This document shows, in pieces, positions 3,571 to 20,101 of a stretch of DNA of 44,082 nucleotides. Under the pieces are notes generated by a model. The model saw only the letters and a program-made list of their open reading frames with translations, was not told where the DNA came from and searched no databases. The number at the start of each line of letters is the position of its first letter. The stretch's first letter is position 1. This stretch comes from Methylobacteriaceae bacterium (GTDB lineage: Bacteria; Pseudomonadota; Alphaproteobacteria; Rhizobiales; Beijerinckiaceae): contig JAEULW010000104.1 in NCBI GenBank assembly GCA_016793505.1, positions 1 through 44,082 of the forward strand, read 5' to 3'. The translations under genes were made by a program, and so were the position numbers.

Positions 3571-6129
3571 TCAGGCGGCGACCACCTTGCAGGCGCATTT
3601 CTTGAAGTCGGTCTCTTTCGAGATCGGGCAGGTGGCGTCGAGCGTCAGCTTGTTGGCGAGCTGGCTCTCGTCGAAGAAGGGGAAGTAGACGAGGCCGCGC
3701 GGCGGCTTGTTGCGCCCCTTGGTCTCGACGCGGGTGACGACCTCGCCGCGCTTGGTCTGGATCTTCACCGTCTGGCCGCGGTTGAGCTTGCGCGCCGCCG
3801 CGTCGTCGGGATGCATGAACAGGACCGCCGCCGGCACGGACCGGTGCAGCTCCGGCACGCGGCGCGTCATCGAGCCCGAATGCCAGTGTTCGAGCACGCG
3901 GCCCGTGCACAGCCACAGATCGAAATCCTTGTCGGGCGATTCCGCCGGCGGCTCGTAGGGGCAGAAGATGGCGCGCGCCTTCTTGTCGGGCTTGCCGTAG
4001 AAGGAAAAGCCCTCGCCGGCCTTCACGTAGGGATCGTAGCCTTCCTTGAAGCGCCAGAGCGTCTCCTTGCCGCCGACCACCGGCCAGCGCAGGCCGCGCG
4101 CCTGATGGTAGGTGTCGAACGGCGCAAGGTCATGCGCATGATCGCGACCGAAGGCGGCGTATTCCTCGAACAGGCCCTTCTGCAGATAGAAGCCGAAATG
4201 CTTCGACTCGGCGTTGTCGAACCCCTTCTGCAGATCGTCGAGCGGGAACTTGTTGACCTTGCCGTTGGCGAACAGCACGTCGTAAAGCGTCTTGCCGCGA
4301 TACTCCGGCTTCTTGGCGATCAGTTCCTCGGGCCAAACCTCCTCGACCTTGAAGTGTTTGGAGAACTCGACCGTCTGCCAGAGGTCGGATCGCGCCTCGC
4401 CGACCGGCGTAACCTGTTGACGCCAGAACTGGGTGCGGCGCTCGGCGTTGCCATAGGCGCCTTCCTTCTCCATCCACATCGCGGTCGGCAGGATCAGGTC
4501 GGCGGCGAGGGCGGTGACGGTCGGATAGGGATCGGACACGACGACGAAGTTCGCCGGGTTGCGATAGCCCGGATAGCCTTCCTCGTTCATGTTCGGCGCG
4601 GTCTGCATGTTGTTCGTGCATTGCACCCAGTAGGCGTTGAGCTTGCCGTCCTTGAGCATGCGGTGCTGCACGACCGCGTGGTAGCCGATGTTGCCGGGCA
4701 GCGTGCCTTCGGGGAGCTGCCAGAGCTCTTCGGTCAGCTTGCGATGCTGCGGGTTGGTGACGACCATGTCGGCCGGCAGGCGGTGGGCGAAGGTGCCGAC
4801 CTCGCGCGCCGTGCCGCAGGCCGAGGGCTGGCCGGTCAGCGAGAACGGGCCGTTGCCTGGCTCGGAGATCTTTCCGGTCAGCAGATGCACGTTGTAGATC
4901 ATGTTGTTGACCCACGTGCCGCGCGTGTGCTGGTTGAAGCCCATCGTCCAGTAGGAGACGATCTTCTTCTTCGGATCGGCGTAGAGCTTGGCGAGGCGCT
5001 CGAGCCGGTCCTTCGGCACGCCGGATTTCTCGTGCGCATAGTCGAGCGTGTAGGGCTCGAGCAGCTTGGCGTATTCCTCGAAGCCGATCTTGTCCTTCAT
5101 GCCGGCGGGATCGACCGCGCCGTCCTTGCCGGCCTTGTGCGAGGCGTTGACGGCCTTGGCCTCGAGCGCGTGCGTCGGCCGCAGGCCGTAGCCGATGTCC
5201 TCGATGGTGTGGGCGAACTCGACGTGCTTGCCGACGAAGTCCTTGTTCACCGCGCCGTTCTTGATGATGTAGTTCTGGATGTAGTTGAGGATCGCCAGAT
5301 CGGAGTGCGGGGCGAAGGTCAGCGCGTTGTCGGCGAGCTCGTAGGAGCGGTGCTCGAAGGTGGAGAGCACATGCACCTCGCAGCCTTCATGCGTCAGGCG
5401 CCGGTCGGTGAGGCGCGACCACAGGATCGGGTGCATCTCGGCCATGTTGGCGCCCCACAAAACGAAGGCGTCGGCATGTTCGAGATCGTCGTAGCAGCCC
5501 ATCGGCTCGTCGATGCCGAAGGTGCGCATGAAGCCGGCGACGGCCGAGGCCATGCAGTGGCGCGCGTTCGGGTCAAGGTTGTTGGAGCGGAAGCCGGCCT
5601 TGTAGAGCTTGGCGGCGGCGTAGCCCTCCCAGATCGTCCACTGGCCCGAGCCGAACATGCCGACGCCGGAAGGCCCTTGCGCCTTCAGCGCCTCCTTCCA
5701 CTTCTCGGCCATGATCTTGAAGGCGTCGTCCCAGGAGATCGGCGTGAAGTCGCCGTTCTTGTCGTACTTGCCGCCCTTCATGCGCAGCAGCGGCTTCGTC
5801 AGGCGATCCTCGCCGTACATGATCTTGGCGAGGAAGTAGCCCTTGATGCAGTTGAGGCCGCGATTGACCGGCGCGTCGGGGTCGCCTTGCGTCGCGACCA
5901 CCTTGTCGTTCTTGACGCCGACGATGACGCCGCAGCCGGTGCCGCAGAAGCGGCAGACGCCCTTGTCCCAGCGGATGCCGTCGGGCGAGCGGGCGGGCTG
6001 GGCGGCGGCCTCGCCGGTCAGCGTCACGCCGATCGAGGCGGCGGCTGCTGCGGCGGCGGTCGCCTTCAGCGCGTCGCGGCGGCTGGCTTCGAGGCGGGGT
6101 GCCGGGGTGGCGACGGTCGTGTCGGTCAT
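3571..6129 (-). CDS. napA: Periplasmic nitrate reductase catalytic subunit NapA
   Basis: NapA is the molybdenum (bis-MGD) enzyme that reduces nitrate to nitrite in the periplasm. The 852 residues match the normal length. Visible features, in order: a twin-arginine signal with the SRRDALK motif near residue 16; a 4Fe-4S site CRFCGTGCG with a fourth Cys in 'LNCIKG' (about residues 59-94); '[12 protein letters not shown]', whose Cys is the expected molybdenum ligand; '[13 protein letters not shown]'; and a C-terminal molybdopterin-binding domain ending '[16 protein letters not shown]'. It sits behind napD, its dedicated chaperone, and ahead of the napGHBC electron-transfer genes. No key residue appears to be missing. 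Confidence 0.97.
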
Positions 6130-6143
6130 GGCGGAGCCCTCTT

Positions 6144-6452
6144 TCAGAGTCGGGGTTGTTCGGAAGCGGCGGCGCGCGGCGCCGTCCGGCTGTCGGCGGC
6201 GGCGTCGCCCTCGTCGTCCATCGCGTGATAGGCGAGGGTCGTCGAAACGACGCCGGGAATGCGGTTGATGGCGGCGAGCTGATCGATCGCCATGGTCGAG
6301 TCGGTGTCGACGGCCGTGGCGACGAGGCGGCCCTGATCGGCCTCGGCGTGCAGTTCGACGCCGGGCAGCGCGGCGATGGCGGCGCGCGCCGCCTCGAGCC
6401 GTCCGGGGGCGACGTGAACCACGACGCCGCAGACATTGTGGACGCCGCTCAT
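6144..6452 (-). CDS. napD: Nap assembly chaperone NapD
   Basis: NapD binds the twin-arginine signal of NapA in the cytoplasm and holds back export until the cofactor is inserted. The 102 residues show the ferredoxin-like fold pattern of the family: '[29 protein letters not shown]', 'GRLVATAV' and '[12 protein letters not shown]'. A charged and Ala-rich tail of about 20 residues extends beyond the usual end. The start ATG overlaps the napF stop (ATGA). Longer upstream frames would run inside napF and were rejected. Confidence 0.92.
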
Positions 6453-6781
6453 GCGTCTCTCCCGAGTTCGACGAGGCCGCGAGCGAGAGCGCGCTCGGCG
6501 CGCGGCTGCAGGGCGATCGCCGAGACAGGGCAGGGCGCGACGCAATCGCCGCAGCCGGTGCACAGAGTCTCGTCCAGCAAGGGCTGCGCGCGGCCGCGGC
6601 CGATCAGTCGGAAGGCGATGGCGTTGACGTCGCAGACCTCGCCGCAACGGCGGCAGGCGACGCCCTTCGTCTCGATGCAGGCTTCGCCGATCCTGGCGAC
6701 CGGACGCTGCTCGGAGCCGGGCGCTGTCGGCGTGCGCGACAGGGCCGCGAAAAGTCCCCGCCGGGACAACGAGACGGTCAT
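6449..6781 (-). CDS. napF: Short NapF-type ferredoxin
   Basis: NapF is a cytoplasmic ferredoxin-type accessory protein thought to help mature or re-activate NapA. Here it has only 110 residues; the enterobacterial protein is about 160 and carries more Cys clusters. What remains is the N-terminal '[11 protein letters not shown]' segment, the atypical site [16 protein letters not shown] and a normal [12 protein letters not shown] site. The two N-terminal ferredoxin motifs of the long form are absent, although the frame is intact and not obviously broken. A good ribosome site (GGAGG, seven bases before ATG) marks it as the first gene of the operon. It overlaps napD by 4 bases. Confidence 0.88.
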
Positions 6782-6820
6782 TGACGCTCCTCCGGAATCG
6801 GGCCGTCTTGGTTGGGCGTC

Positions 6821-6826
6821 AACATG
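6821..6826 (-). promoter_or_regulatory. Possible -10 of the nap promoter
   Basis: On the minus strand CATGTT at 6826-6821 (3 of 6 matches to TATAAT) sits where a -10 would be if the FNR-type box at 6850-6863 were centred at -41.5. This is inference from spacing, not a strong motif. Confidence 0.3.
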
Positions 6827-6849
6827 GCCGCGATGGGCCCTTGTTCTCC

Positions 6850-6863
6850 TTGATGCATATCAA
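6850..6863. promoter_or_regulatory. Perfect FNR/Anr-type box upstream of napF
   Basis: TTGATGCATATCAA matches the FNR-family consensus TTGAT-N4-ATCAA at every fixed position. Its centre lies about 75 bases upstream of the napF start. Nap operons are commonly under FNR, Anr or FixK-type control, so oxygen-responsive activation is the natural reading. Confidence 0.8.
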
Positions 6864-6871
6864 GCCGTCGC

Positions 6872-6900
6872 ATTGCAGCGCAAGTTTGTTGCACTGCAAT
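6872..6900. promoter_or_regulatory. 29-bp inverted repeat in the nap control region
   Basis: ATTGCAGCGCAA (6872-6883) and TTGCACTGCAAT (6889-6900) are reverse complements at 11 of 12 positions, with a 5-base spacer. Each arm is itself nearly palindromic (TTGC...GCAA). It lies between two FNR-like boxes and looks like an operator for a dimeric or tetrameric regulator that I cannot name. Confidence 0.5.
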
Positions 6901-6930
6901 GTCGCCTAAACCACGAATTCATTGGGCAAA

Positions 6931-6944
6931 TTGACGAGCGTCAA
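6931..6944. promoter_or_regulatory. Second FNR/CRP-family-like box upstream of nap
   Basis: TTGACGAGCGTCAA is a perfect palindrome of the TTGAC-N4-GTCAA form used by several FNR/DNR-family proteins. It is centred 81 bases upstream of the first box. It could bind the same protein or a nitric-oxide-responsive relative. Confidence 0.5.
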
Positions 6945-7003
6945 GCGGCGCGCATTTTCTTGCCGTCCGGAGGCGCGACACAGGCGCTCAGGGCGCGGCG
7001 CAT

Positions 7004-8080
7004 TCAGCGCGCTGGTTCGGCCTGGGGCGCGGCGGCGAGGCCCGGCCGGTCGAGGGCTGCGTCGGCAAGGCCGGCCGCGGCCCACATCGCCAGCAGCGTC
7101 GCCCAGGACACGGTGGAGAAGACCGCCGCGCCCGAGACGCCCGCGCCGATGGCGCAGCCCGCCGCCAGCATGCCGCCGAAGCCCATCAGCAACGCGCCGA
7201 CGATGTAGCGGCGCATGCTCTCGCCGCCGTGGAAGCCCTCCAGCCGCAGTTCACGCGCGGCGGCGGCGGCGAGGAAAGAGCCGAGGAAGACGCCCGGCAC
7301 GAGGCCGATGTCGAAGTCGAAGCGCCCGCCGGGCTGCAGCACCAGCATCAGCATGTTGGCCGAGGGGCCGGTGAAGCTCAGGCTCTTGACCGGCTGCGGG
7401 TCGAAACTGGCGCTCGCCAGCTGCGCGGTGAAGGCCCAGGTCGCCGCCACCATCAGGCCGACGCCCGCCGCCCAGGTCGCCTGCCGCCAGCCGATCCGCA
7501 CGCGCCGCGCGATGGCGATCGCCGTCGCCAGAAAGATCAGCGCCAGCGGCAGGGCGAGACCCGCCGGCGCGCCGGCGAGGGTGAGCAGATTGAGCCTGTC
7601 GGCGCCGTCGATCGTCCAAAGGGCGGCGAGACTGTCGCGGGCCGGGGCGAGCAGGCCGCGCGAGGCGGCCTGCGCGGCGACGGCGAAGATCAGGCCCGAC
7701 AGCAGGGCGCGCAGATTGCCATTGGCCGACAGCACCAGCAGGCGGCTGGCGCAGCCGCGGGTCAGCACCATGCCGACGCCGAACATCGCCCCGCCGATGA
7801 TCGCGCCGGACAGCGAGCCGCGCTGATTGAGCTGGCGGATGGCGGGCAACTCGACCACGCCGGCGGCGACGAGCAGCTGCGTCGCGACGACGGCGGCGGA
7901 GAAGGCCAGCGCCCAGACCGCGACGCGCGCCGTCAGGTCGCCGCGCCAGAAATCGATCGTCGCAGCGCGCAGGCAGAAGCGGCTGCGCTGCGCGACGGCG
8001 CCGAACAACCCGCCGAGCGCCATGCCGCCGGCGAAGGAGACCCAGCCGTCGCCAAAGCGCGCCACCCATTCCTCGAGCAT
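7004..8080 (-). CDS. YeeE/YedE (TsuA-like) sulfur-compound transporter, second copy
   Basis: This 358-residue inner-membrane protein has the repeated hydrophobic segments of the YeeE/YedE family, of which TsuA imports thiosulfate. Three family cysteines are visible in the expected places: 'RSRFCLRAA' (about residue 36), 'TRGCASRLL' and 'AAGCAIGAG'; in TsuA such cysteines line the thiosulfate path. The full length means it is not the split half-size form. It lies downstream of a second YeeE gene and the soxRS pair, behind its own SqrR-like operator, so sulfur import under sulfide control is likely. The transported species (thiosulfate or another sulfane-sulfur compound) is inferred. Confidence 0.85.
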   Translation of the reverse strand: MLEEWVARFGDGWVSFAGGMALGGLFGAVAQRSRFCLRAATIDFWRGDLTARVAVWALAFSAAVVATQLLVAAGVVELPAIRQLNQRGSLSGAIIGGAMFGVGMVLTRGCASRLLVLSANGNLRALLSGLIFAVAAQAASRGLLAPARDSLAALWTIDGADRLNLLTLAGAPAGLALPLALIFLATAIAIARRVRIGWRQATWAAGVGLMVAATWAFTAQLASASFDPQPVKSLSFTGPSANMLMLVLQPGGRFDFDIGLVPGVFLGSFLAAAAARELRLEGFHGGESMRRYIVGALLMGFGGMLAAGCAIGAGVSGAAVFSTVSWATLLAMWAAAGLADAALDRPGLAAAPQAEPAR

Positions 8081-9283: not shown

Positions 9284-9649
9284 TCAGGCTTTGCGGCTCT
9301 CGCAGAAGATATCGTAGATCACCTCGATGACCCGGCGCACGTCGTCATTGGCGATCGAATAATAGACCGTCTTGCCGTCCCGCCGGGTGGCGACCAGATC
9401 GTCGAAGCGCAGGCGCGCCAACTGCTGCGACACGGTCGGCTGGCGCAGCGACAGGATCGCCTCGAGTTCGCCGACCGAACGCTCTCTCTCGGCCAGCAGA
9501 CAGAGCACCAGCAGACGGCTCTCGTGCGACAGCGCCTTCAGCAGATCGCTGGCGTCGCGGGCGTTGCGCATCAGCGCCTCGAGCCGCGGCGAGGTCTCCG
9601 GACCGGAGCCCAGATCCTCGACGATGTCTCTCGATACGATGGCGCTCAT
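9284..9649 (-). CDS. soxR: ArsR-family sulfane-sulfur sensor, SqrR/BigR type
   Basis: This 121-residue winged-helix repressor has the ArsR fold: 'LLKALSHESRLLVLCLLAE', then the recognition helix 'RQPTVSQQLARLRFDDLV' and the wing 'TRRDGKTVYYSI'. It contains two cysteines, Cys50 in 'LLVLCLL' and Cys116 in 'YDIFCES'. The spacing of 66 residues equals that of Cys41 and Cys107 of SqrR, which form a polysulfide bridge when sulfane sulfur is present and so release DNA. No metal-binding ArsR motif (CXCXXC) is seen. The start at 9649 lies one base after the soxS stop codon, so the two are coupled. Likely targets are the ATTC-N8-GAAT-like sites in this island. Confidence 0.9.
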   Translation of the reverse strand: MSAIVSRDIVEDLGSGPETSPRLEALMRNARDASDLLKALSHESRLLVLCLLAERERSVGELEAILSLRQPTVSQQLARLRFDDLVATRRDGKTVYYSIANDDVRRVIEVIYDIFCESRKA

Positions 9650-9650
9650 G

Positions 9651-10034
9651 TCATCCCTGCGCGGCGCTGGCGCCGGCCTCACGTTTCAGCATGGCGCCCA
9701 GAAGGCCCCAGAAGGTCGAGTCGTCAAGATAGCCGTTGATACGGCCAACCTCGCGGCCGTCGCGCAACAGCAGGAAGGTCGGCGTGTAGCGCACCGGCGC
9801 TTTCGCCGCCGTCGGCTGGCCGGCGGCGAGGTCATGGCGGCGCAGCGGCGCCTGCGCGCCCTCCGGCGTCTTGCCGTAAAGCGGCGCCACCTCGGCGTTC
9901 CAGCGTTGGCACCAGGCGCAGCCGGCGCGCTCGACCATGACGAGTTCGAAACCGGCCGCCTCGCCGGCGCGCGCGGGCGCCGCCAGCCAGAGGGCCAGCG
10001 CCGCGACGATGAAAGCGAGCGTCCTTGCGCGCAT
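9651..10034 (-). CDS. soxS: SoxS-like periplasmic thioredoxin-fold protein
   Basis: This small exported protein (127 residues from the chosen start) has a Sec signal peptide ending 'APARA' and the thioredoxin-fold site CAWC in 'MVERAGCAWCQRWNAEV', a pattern typical of SoxS. In Paracoccus SoxS is needed for full Sox activity, apparently by reducing or protecting the SoxYZ cysteine. A cis-Pro is seen in 'VRYTPTFLLL'. An ATG two codons upstream (10040) is possible. Neither has a ribosome site, and a plausible -10 at 10040-10045 would place the transcript start at the ATG used here, so translation may be leaderless. It is divergent from soxV. Confidence 0.85.
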   Translation of the reverse strand: MRARTLAFIVAALALWLAAPARAGEAAGFELVMVERAGCAWCQRWNAEVAPLYGKTPEGAQAPLRRHDLAAGQPTAAKAPVRYTPTFLLLRDGREVGRINGYLDDSTFWGLLGAMLKREAGASAAQG

Positions 10035-20062: not shown

Positions 20063-20101
20063 AAGGCCGCGGCGCGCGCGGGCGCCGCGGCCTTTGATTT
20101 T
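20063..20101. terminator. Strong rho-independent terminator after soxF
   Basis: A perfect 12-bp stem (20063-20074 with 20083-20094, loop 8) is followed by TTTGATTTT on the plus strand. The stem starts with AA on the left, so it can also serve as terminator for the minus-strand DapA-family gene that ends at 20113. Confidence 0.85.

Follow-up and report, generated by a model that had tools for sequence, protein, structure and literature searches.

PhaR, also called AniA, has its boxes in phasin promoters, among them those of phaP1 and phaP4 of B. diazoefficiens and those of S. meliloti; the box of R. sphaeroides reads CTGCN3GCAG. Nap is often considered to dispose of surplus reductant, and in some α-proteobacteria nap expression tracks how reduced the carbon source is. 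PhaR is reported to repress phasin genes, to form mainly tetramers in solution and to bind PHB, a storage plastic whose granules titrate it (PMC10888616, PMC12542648). The B. diazoefficiens consensus TGCRNYGCASMA, established by footprints and EMSA, contains the core TGCRNYGCA (PMC6201568), and the S. meliloti motif has the same palindromic core (PMC12542648).

Mutants of two species bear on the relation between PHB and nitrate reduction. Deletion of phaR in B. diazoefficiens raises the transcripts of napEDABC/napE and nirK, and the effect on nap is discussed as an indirect one, via FixK2 and NnrR (PMC6201568, PMC10888616). In S. meliloti, the napB protein is higher in a phbC phaR strain than in a phbC strain; the authors conclude that the link of PHB to fixK-associated genes does not go through PhaR (PMC12542648). 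PHB-cycle mutants of the same species have altered expression of regions with nap, nir, nor and nos genes (PMC5596199). In our analysis, these PhaR and PHB mutant data fit a general link from PHB to nap. No PhaR site in a nap promoter was found in the literature covered, most subscription papers being outside its scope.

Here we analyze a candidate site of this type upstream of the nap operon of a Methylobacteriaceae bacterium, located in a window of 44,082 nucleotides, which is the whole stretch of DNA analyzed (Table 1). Reading frames and domain matches give the operon order napF-napD-napA-napG-napH-napB-napC, where the napD reading frame has no Pfam match. Since the intergenic region 6782-7003 separates the napF start from the end of the same-strand yedE gene, nap is the only obvious target of an element in this region. 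With regard to FNR/FixK/NnrR control of nap, the repeat stands between two boxes with a perfect fit to TTGAY-N4-RTCAA, and its own unit, the 11-bp TTGC-N3-GCAA, differs from the 14-bp FNR-type box. The first-pass annotation had placed the repeat exactly between these boxes. It does lie between them, but not midway, as the gaps are 8 bp on the proximal side and 30 bp on the distal side. The absence of an adjacent regulator gene, also claimed there, holds for the immediate neighbours, and an ArsR-type regulator gene is found about 2.4 kb away at 9284-9682. This gene appears to be part of a putative sox (sulfur oxidation) cluster, so named from translations, from which two YedE-type sulphur transport genes lead to nap. 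The window holds four other TGCRNYGCA cores (2363, 4617, 22574, 24174), none of them in the sox-like region, and a scan of the window with the 29-mer of positions 6872-6900 gave nothing above 18/29 except its own reverse complement; an operator for SoxR or ArsR from the neighbouring cluster was therefore rejected.

Table 1. The nap promoter region, its boxes and the adjoining genes. Positions refer to the window.
Feature	Position	Strand	Details	Basis or annotation
napA	3571..6129	-		Molybdopterin oxidoreductase, MoCo-binding and Fe4S4 domains
napF-like ferredoxin gene	6449..6781	-	First nap gene, presumed target	4Fe-4S dicluster families over cut-off
Proximal FNR/FixK-type box TTGATGCATATCAA	6850..6863		Centre 6856.5, ~75 bp upstream of napF start codon	Perfect TTGAY-N4-RTCAA
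Inverted repeat, full extent	6871..6901		13-base arms, 12/13 pairs, 5-base spacer	Repeat search
PhaR-like box 1, TTGCAGCGCAA	6873..6883		Core TGCAGCGCA 6874-6882	Left arm; near-palindrome; TGCRNYGCA 9/9
Spacer GTTTG between both boxes	6884..6888			Sequence reading
PhaR-like box 2, TTGCACTGCAA	6889..6899		Core TGCACTGCA 6890-6898	Right arm; TGCRNYGCA 9/9
Distal FNR/FixK-type box TTGACGAGCGTCAA	6931..6944			Perfect TTGAY-N4-RTCAA
YeeE/YedE-type sulphur transport gene	7004..8080	-	Upstream; stop codon bounds intergenic region	PF04143

The element had been annotated as a 29-bp inverted repeat with arms complementary in 11 of 12 bases and a 5-base spacer, and the letters confirm this. Positions 6872-6900 read ATTGCAGCGCAA, then GTTTG, then TTGCACTGCAAT, with arms at 6872-6883 and 6889-6900; in the longest form the arms extend over 6871-6883 and 6889-6901. 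A single 29-bp operator is nevertheless not the best description, since the arms are themselves palindromic and tandem 11-bp copies fit better. The sequence TTGCA-C-TGCAA is an exact palindrome, and TTGCA-G-CGCAA has one inner pair broken; box 2 is palindromic except for its centre base. Because each arm is a palindrome around one base, we consider the 11-mer TTGCRNYGCAA in two copies, with centres at 6878 and 6894 (16 bp apart), as the natural unit. Any palindrome in two copies automatically resembles one longer inverted repeat.

Outside both palindromes the symmetry continues for two further bases (CA..TG), which would suit an element acting as RNA, that is, a 3' end or a processing or stability element of the same-strand yedE transcript, or a hairpin in the nap 5' leader. 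The nap-sense strand could fold into a stem of 13 pairs (one of them G-U) with a loop of 5 bases, at -23.1 kcal/mol and a z-score of -4.7; equal stability was reached in 0 of 200 shuffles, and the position, about 100 bases past the yedE stop codon, is suitable as well. The G-U wobble is weak evidence, since any single transition mismatch in a stem necessarily appears as G-U on one of the two strands. An intrinsic terminator is contradicted by the nap strand, which has no T run after the stem, and by a terminator scan, which made no call. No Rfam match was found in the window, and a hairpin leaves both the arm palindromes and the location among FNR boxes unexplained. We regard an RNA element as improbable.

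An inverted repeat by itself is not rare, because the 44-kb window contains 11 distinct places with 12-base arms, at least 11 pairs and a spacer of 3-8 bases. The remaining ten are G+C-rich. At 20063-20094 of the window, a G+C-rich hairpin is followed by TTTGATTTT and is likely an ordinary terminator. When the 222-bp intergenic region was shuffled, a comparable inverted repeat appeared in 8 of 2000 shuffles. One TTGCRNYGCAA was present in 13 of 20000 shuffles of the same region, and two were present in none. The single motif occurs 13 times in the own genome (4.12 Mb), with 11 of these sites outside the window, and a reversed control pattern occurs 12 times. Since single sites are thus at genome background, the unusual trait is their pairing, and the pair of boxes in the nap promoter region is unlikely to be a chance product. 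A dispersed repeat element was rejected, as the TTGCRNYGCAA pair is present only once in the own genome.

Both boxes match the PhaR core. Compared with the published 12-mer TGCRNYGCASMA, box 1 agrees in 9 of 12 letters in either orientation, and box 2, read on the nap strand as TGCAGTGCAACA, agrees in 11 of 12; the published PhaR sites are themselves relaxed at the last three letters. The own genome encodes one PhaR with both the DNA-binding and the PHB domains (PF07879, PF05233), one PhaC (PHA synthase) and one phasin. The promoter of the phasin gene (contig C63; L050, 1360-1500) has a TTGACA element flanked by TGCGGTGCA and TGCATCGCA, together with a TATAAG element, and this matches the two-site arrangement described for phaP1 of B. 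diazoefficiens (PMC6201568, PMC10888616). The upstream regions of the own phaR and phaC genes contain no core. Two complementary searches of the own genome for core pairs with gaps of 2-30 bases returned three places, namely the nap region, the phasin promoter and the interior of a 665-codon reading frame, read as nuoL from its translation.

In the group as a whole, the operator of the PhaR type is well fixed, because 28 of 30 phasin loci (29 relatives and the own genome) have a core within 300 bp upstream, and the phasin upstream regions (8,970 bp) contain 53 core matches, as against 0-1 for each of six control patterns. Two cores 30-33 bp apart are found in 23 of the 30 loci. The nap boxes are like these phasin boxes in that both have the full core of 9 letters, are paired and occur in a genome with phaR and PHB genes. 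They differ from them in spacing, the nap pair being 16 bp apart, in context, as the pair precedes an FNR-type box and encloses no visible -35 element, and in the target, here nap instead of a PHB gene.

We constructed a profile of 21 positions, flanks included, from 51 phasin sites of relatives, whose own scores run from 14.5 to 33.7 bits, with the 10th percentile at 22.9. With 13.0 bits for box 2 and a value under 6 bits for box 1, both nap boxes fall short of this training range. The outer flanks of both nap boxes (CAT...ATG) are devoid of the A/T bases typical of phasin sites, and because of this A/T-poor flanking sequence we term the nap boxes PhaR-like and not proven members. The -35 and -10 letters of the phasin promoters themselves may form part of the flank signal of the profile. 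A PhaR-like core with a high profile score is also found inside napA (4611-4631), and the napA genes of relatives have it at the corresponding position. The site overlaps the codons of the conserved stretch WVQCTNN; it probably arises by coding coincidence and is thus a trap for motif scans.

Among 397 genomes of the order, tight TTGCRNYGCAA pairs were found at 20 places in 19 genomes, and the reversed control at none. For nine of the 18 loci outside the own one, neighbours were assigned: phasin genes in four (L213, L214, L216, L225), an SDR gene in one (L219), DeoR genes in two (L211, L220), a LacI gene in one (L227) and an aldolase II gene in one; the sites of L211, L220 and L227 are at 1501-1532. 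The start of the SDR gene resembles that of the SDR gene beside the own phaR. In the phasin and SDR loci (sites at 1501-1530) the boxes are 18-19 bp apart, which represents a second, tighter spacing class compared with 30-33 bp. The palindrome is not exclusive to PhaR, because the same tight pair adjoins DeoR and LacI genes; TTGCRNYGCAA may be common to different regulator families.

The nap repeat could accordingly be the operator of another palindrome-binding regulator (DeoR, LacI or other), possibly encoded at a distance, which would add some other signal to nap. The pairs at DeoR and LacI genes and the poor match of the box flanks to the phasin-derived PhaR profile point in this direction. 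However, the phasin promoter is the only other promoter of the own genome with such a core pair, the neighbours examined include no LacI or DeoR gene, and the sox-like region next door has no similar core. On balance, such a regulator seems unlikely to us, though less so than an RNA element.

The conservation of the element was examined in 126 nap loci, of which 46 came from whole genomes and 80 from named genome contigs, a number that counts the duplicates L053 = L105 and L076 = L100; six of the 46 whole-genome loci were compared with the 80 named ones for duplication. Locus L053 (G053) shares 5,514 identical bases with a contig labelled Beijerinckiaceae bacterium, which suggests this family for the own genome as well. 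Of the 126 loci, 58 carry a perfect FNR box in the 1500 bp before napA, the own locus and duplicates included. A core within 120 bp of the FNR box is present in five of these 58 (the own locus, G135, L106, L121 and L168), and the control patterns gave 0-4 loci. Conservation of the repeat in close relatives that keep the FNR box, by which the first-pass annotation had proposed to judge it, did not materialize: the box pair is absent from all six closest nap relatives (G135, G286, G168, G053, G001 and G070), three of which (G135, G053 and G001) keep perfect FNR boxes. An ancestral nap element is therefore ruled out, which leaves room for a lineage-specific operator. The survey led us to reject a general conservation of the repeat at nap.

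The closest relative by NapA (G135, 88% identity) has one site, TGCGGCGCACCA, that matches the PhaR consensus in 12 of 12 letters and lies 25 bp from the FNR box, a suggestive support for PhaR at nap. The nap promoters of two Paracoccus, of Cereibacter and of S. meliloti contain no perfect core. The B. diazoefficiens nirK gene has the predicted site TGCGCTGCAACA (PMC6201568, Table 2), so that both systems show a PhaR-like site at a nitrogen-oxide reductase gene, and box 2 shares its last three letters; the nirK site is single, whereas nap here carries two boxes. A PhaR-like core was found in the nirK upstream regions of 0 of 30 loci, which led us to reject PhaR as a general regulator of denitrification in the group. 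The own genome has no clear Cu-type NirK, the best match (E 1.4e-7) being below the cut-off.

The absence from the closest relatives would also suit a non-functional palindromic sequence or a decaying site, as would the background frequency of single motifs in the own genome and the abundance of inverted repeats of such length in the window. Two perfect boxes never arose in the region shuffles, and the 20 tight pairs in the order have no counterpart in the reversed control, both of which speak against chance; we find this explanation quite improbable.

The case for PhaR thus builds on the match of both arms to TGCRNYGCA, on arm palindromes that neither a plain repeat nor an RNA hairpin requires, on the presence of PhaR, PhaC and phasin in the same genome, with a core at the phasin gene and core pairs rare elsewhere, and on the phasin-adjoining pairs of other genomes, the nap data of phaR mutants and the G135 site. 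The case against it builds on the flank scores, the 16-bp spacing, the lack of a pair in close relatives, the nirK result, the DeoR- and LacI-adjoining pairs, the missing core upstream of the own phaR and phaC and in four other nap promoters, the indirect route in B. diazoefficiens and the conclusion on fixK genes in S. meliloti. Judged from sequence, the most likely reading, to which we give about even chances, is that the repeat serves PhaR as a twin operator specific to this lineage, so that the FNR-type nap promoter would be a new target of a known type of regulator. Somewhat more tentatively, as a possibility short of even, we suggest that PhaR could be wired directly into the FNR-dependent nap promoter via the two boxes, with periplasmic nitrate reduction gated by both carbon storage and oxygen. 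Such a direct cis-link to nap would contrast with B. diazoefficiens, where PhaR is thought to act via FixK2 and NnrR.

An additional layer on top of oxygen control, as the first-pass annotation proposed, is still the best reading of the element, given its promoter position and the improbable pair of boxes. Nitrate or molybdate, named there as possible signals, found no backing, as nothing ties the repeat to either; we know of no nitrate or molybdate site type that is recognisable in it. Redox control, the third suggestion, could be indirectly right, because PHB is a sink for both reductant and carbon.

We speculate that at low PHB levels PhaR would occupy both boxes and hinder the FNR-type activation of nap. 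If a class II start is placed near 6815 from the proximal FNR box, the twin boxes would be located at about -63 to -79. A PhaR tetramer at the boxes could block the FNR-type activator, the contacts of the RNA polymerase alpha subunit, or an interaction of one FNR box with the other. Once PHB builds up, its granules would pull PhaR from the DNA and nap would be released, so that nitrate reduction could serve as a second outlet for reductant under carbon excess. If PhaR does act directly on such an operator at nap, carbon storage and nitrate reduction would be joined by a concrete molecular link that can be tested.
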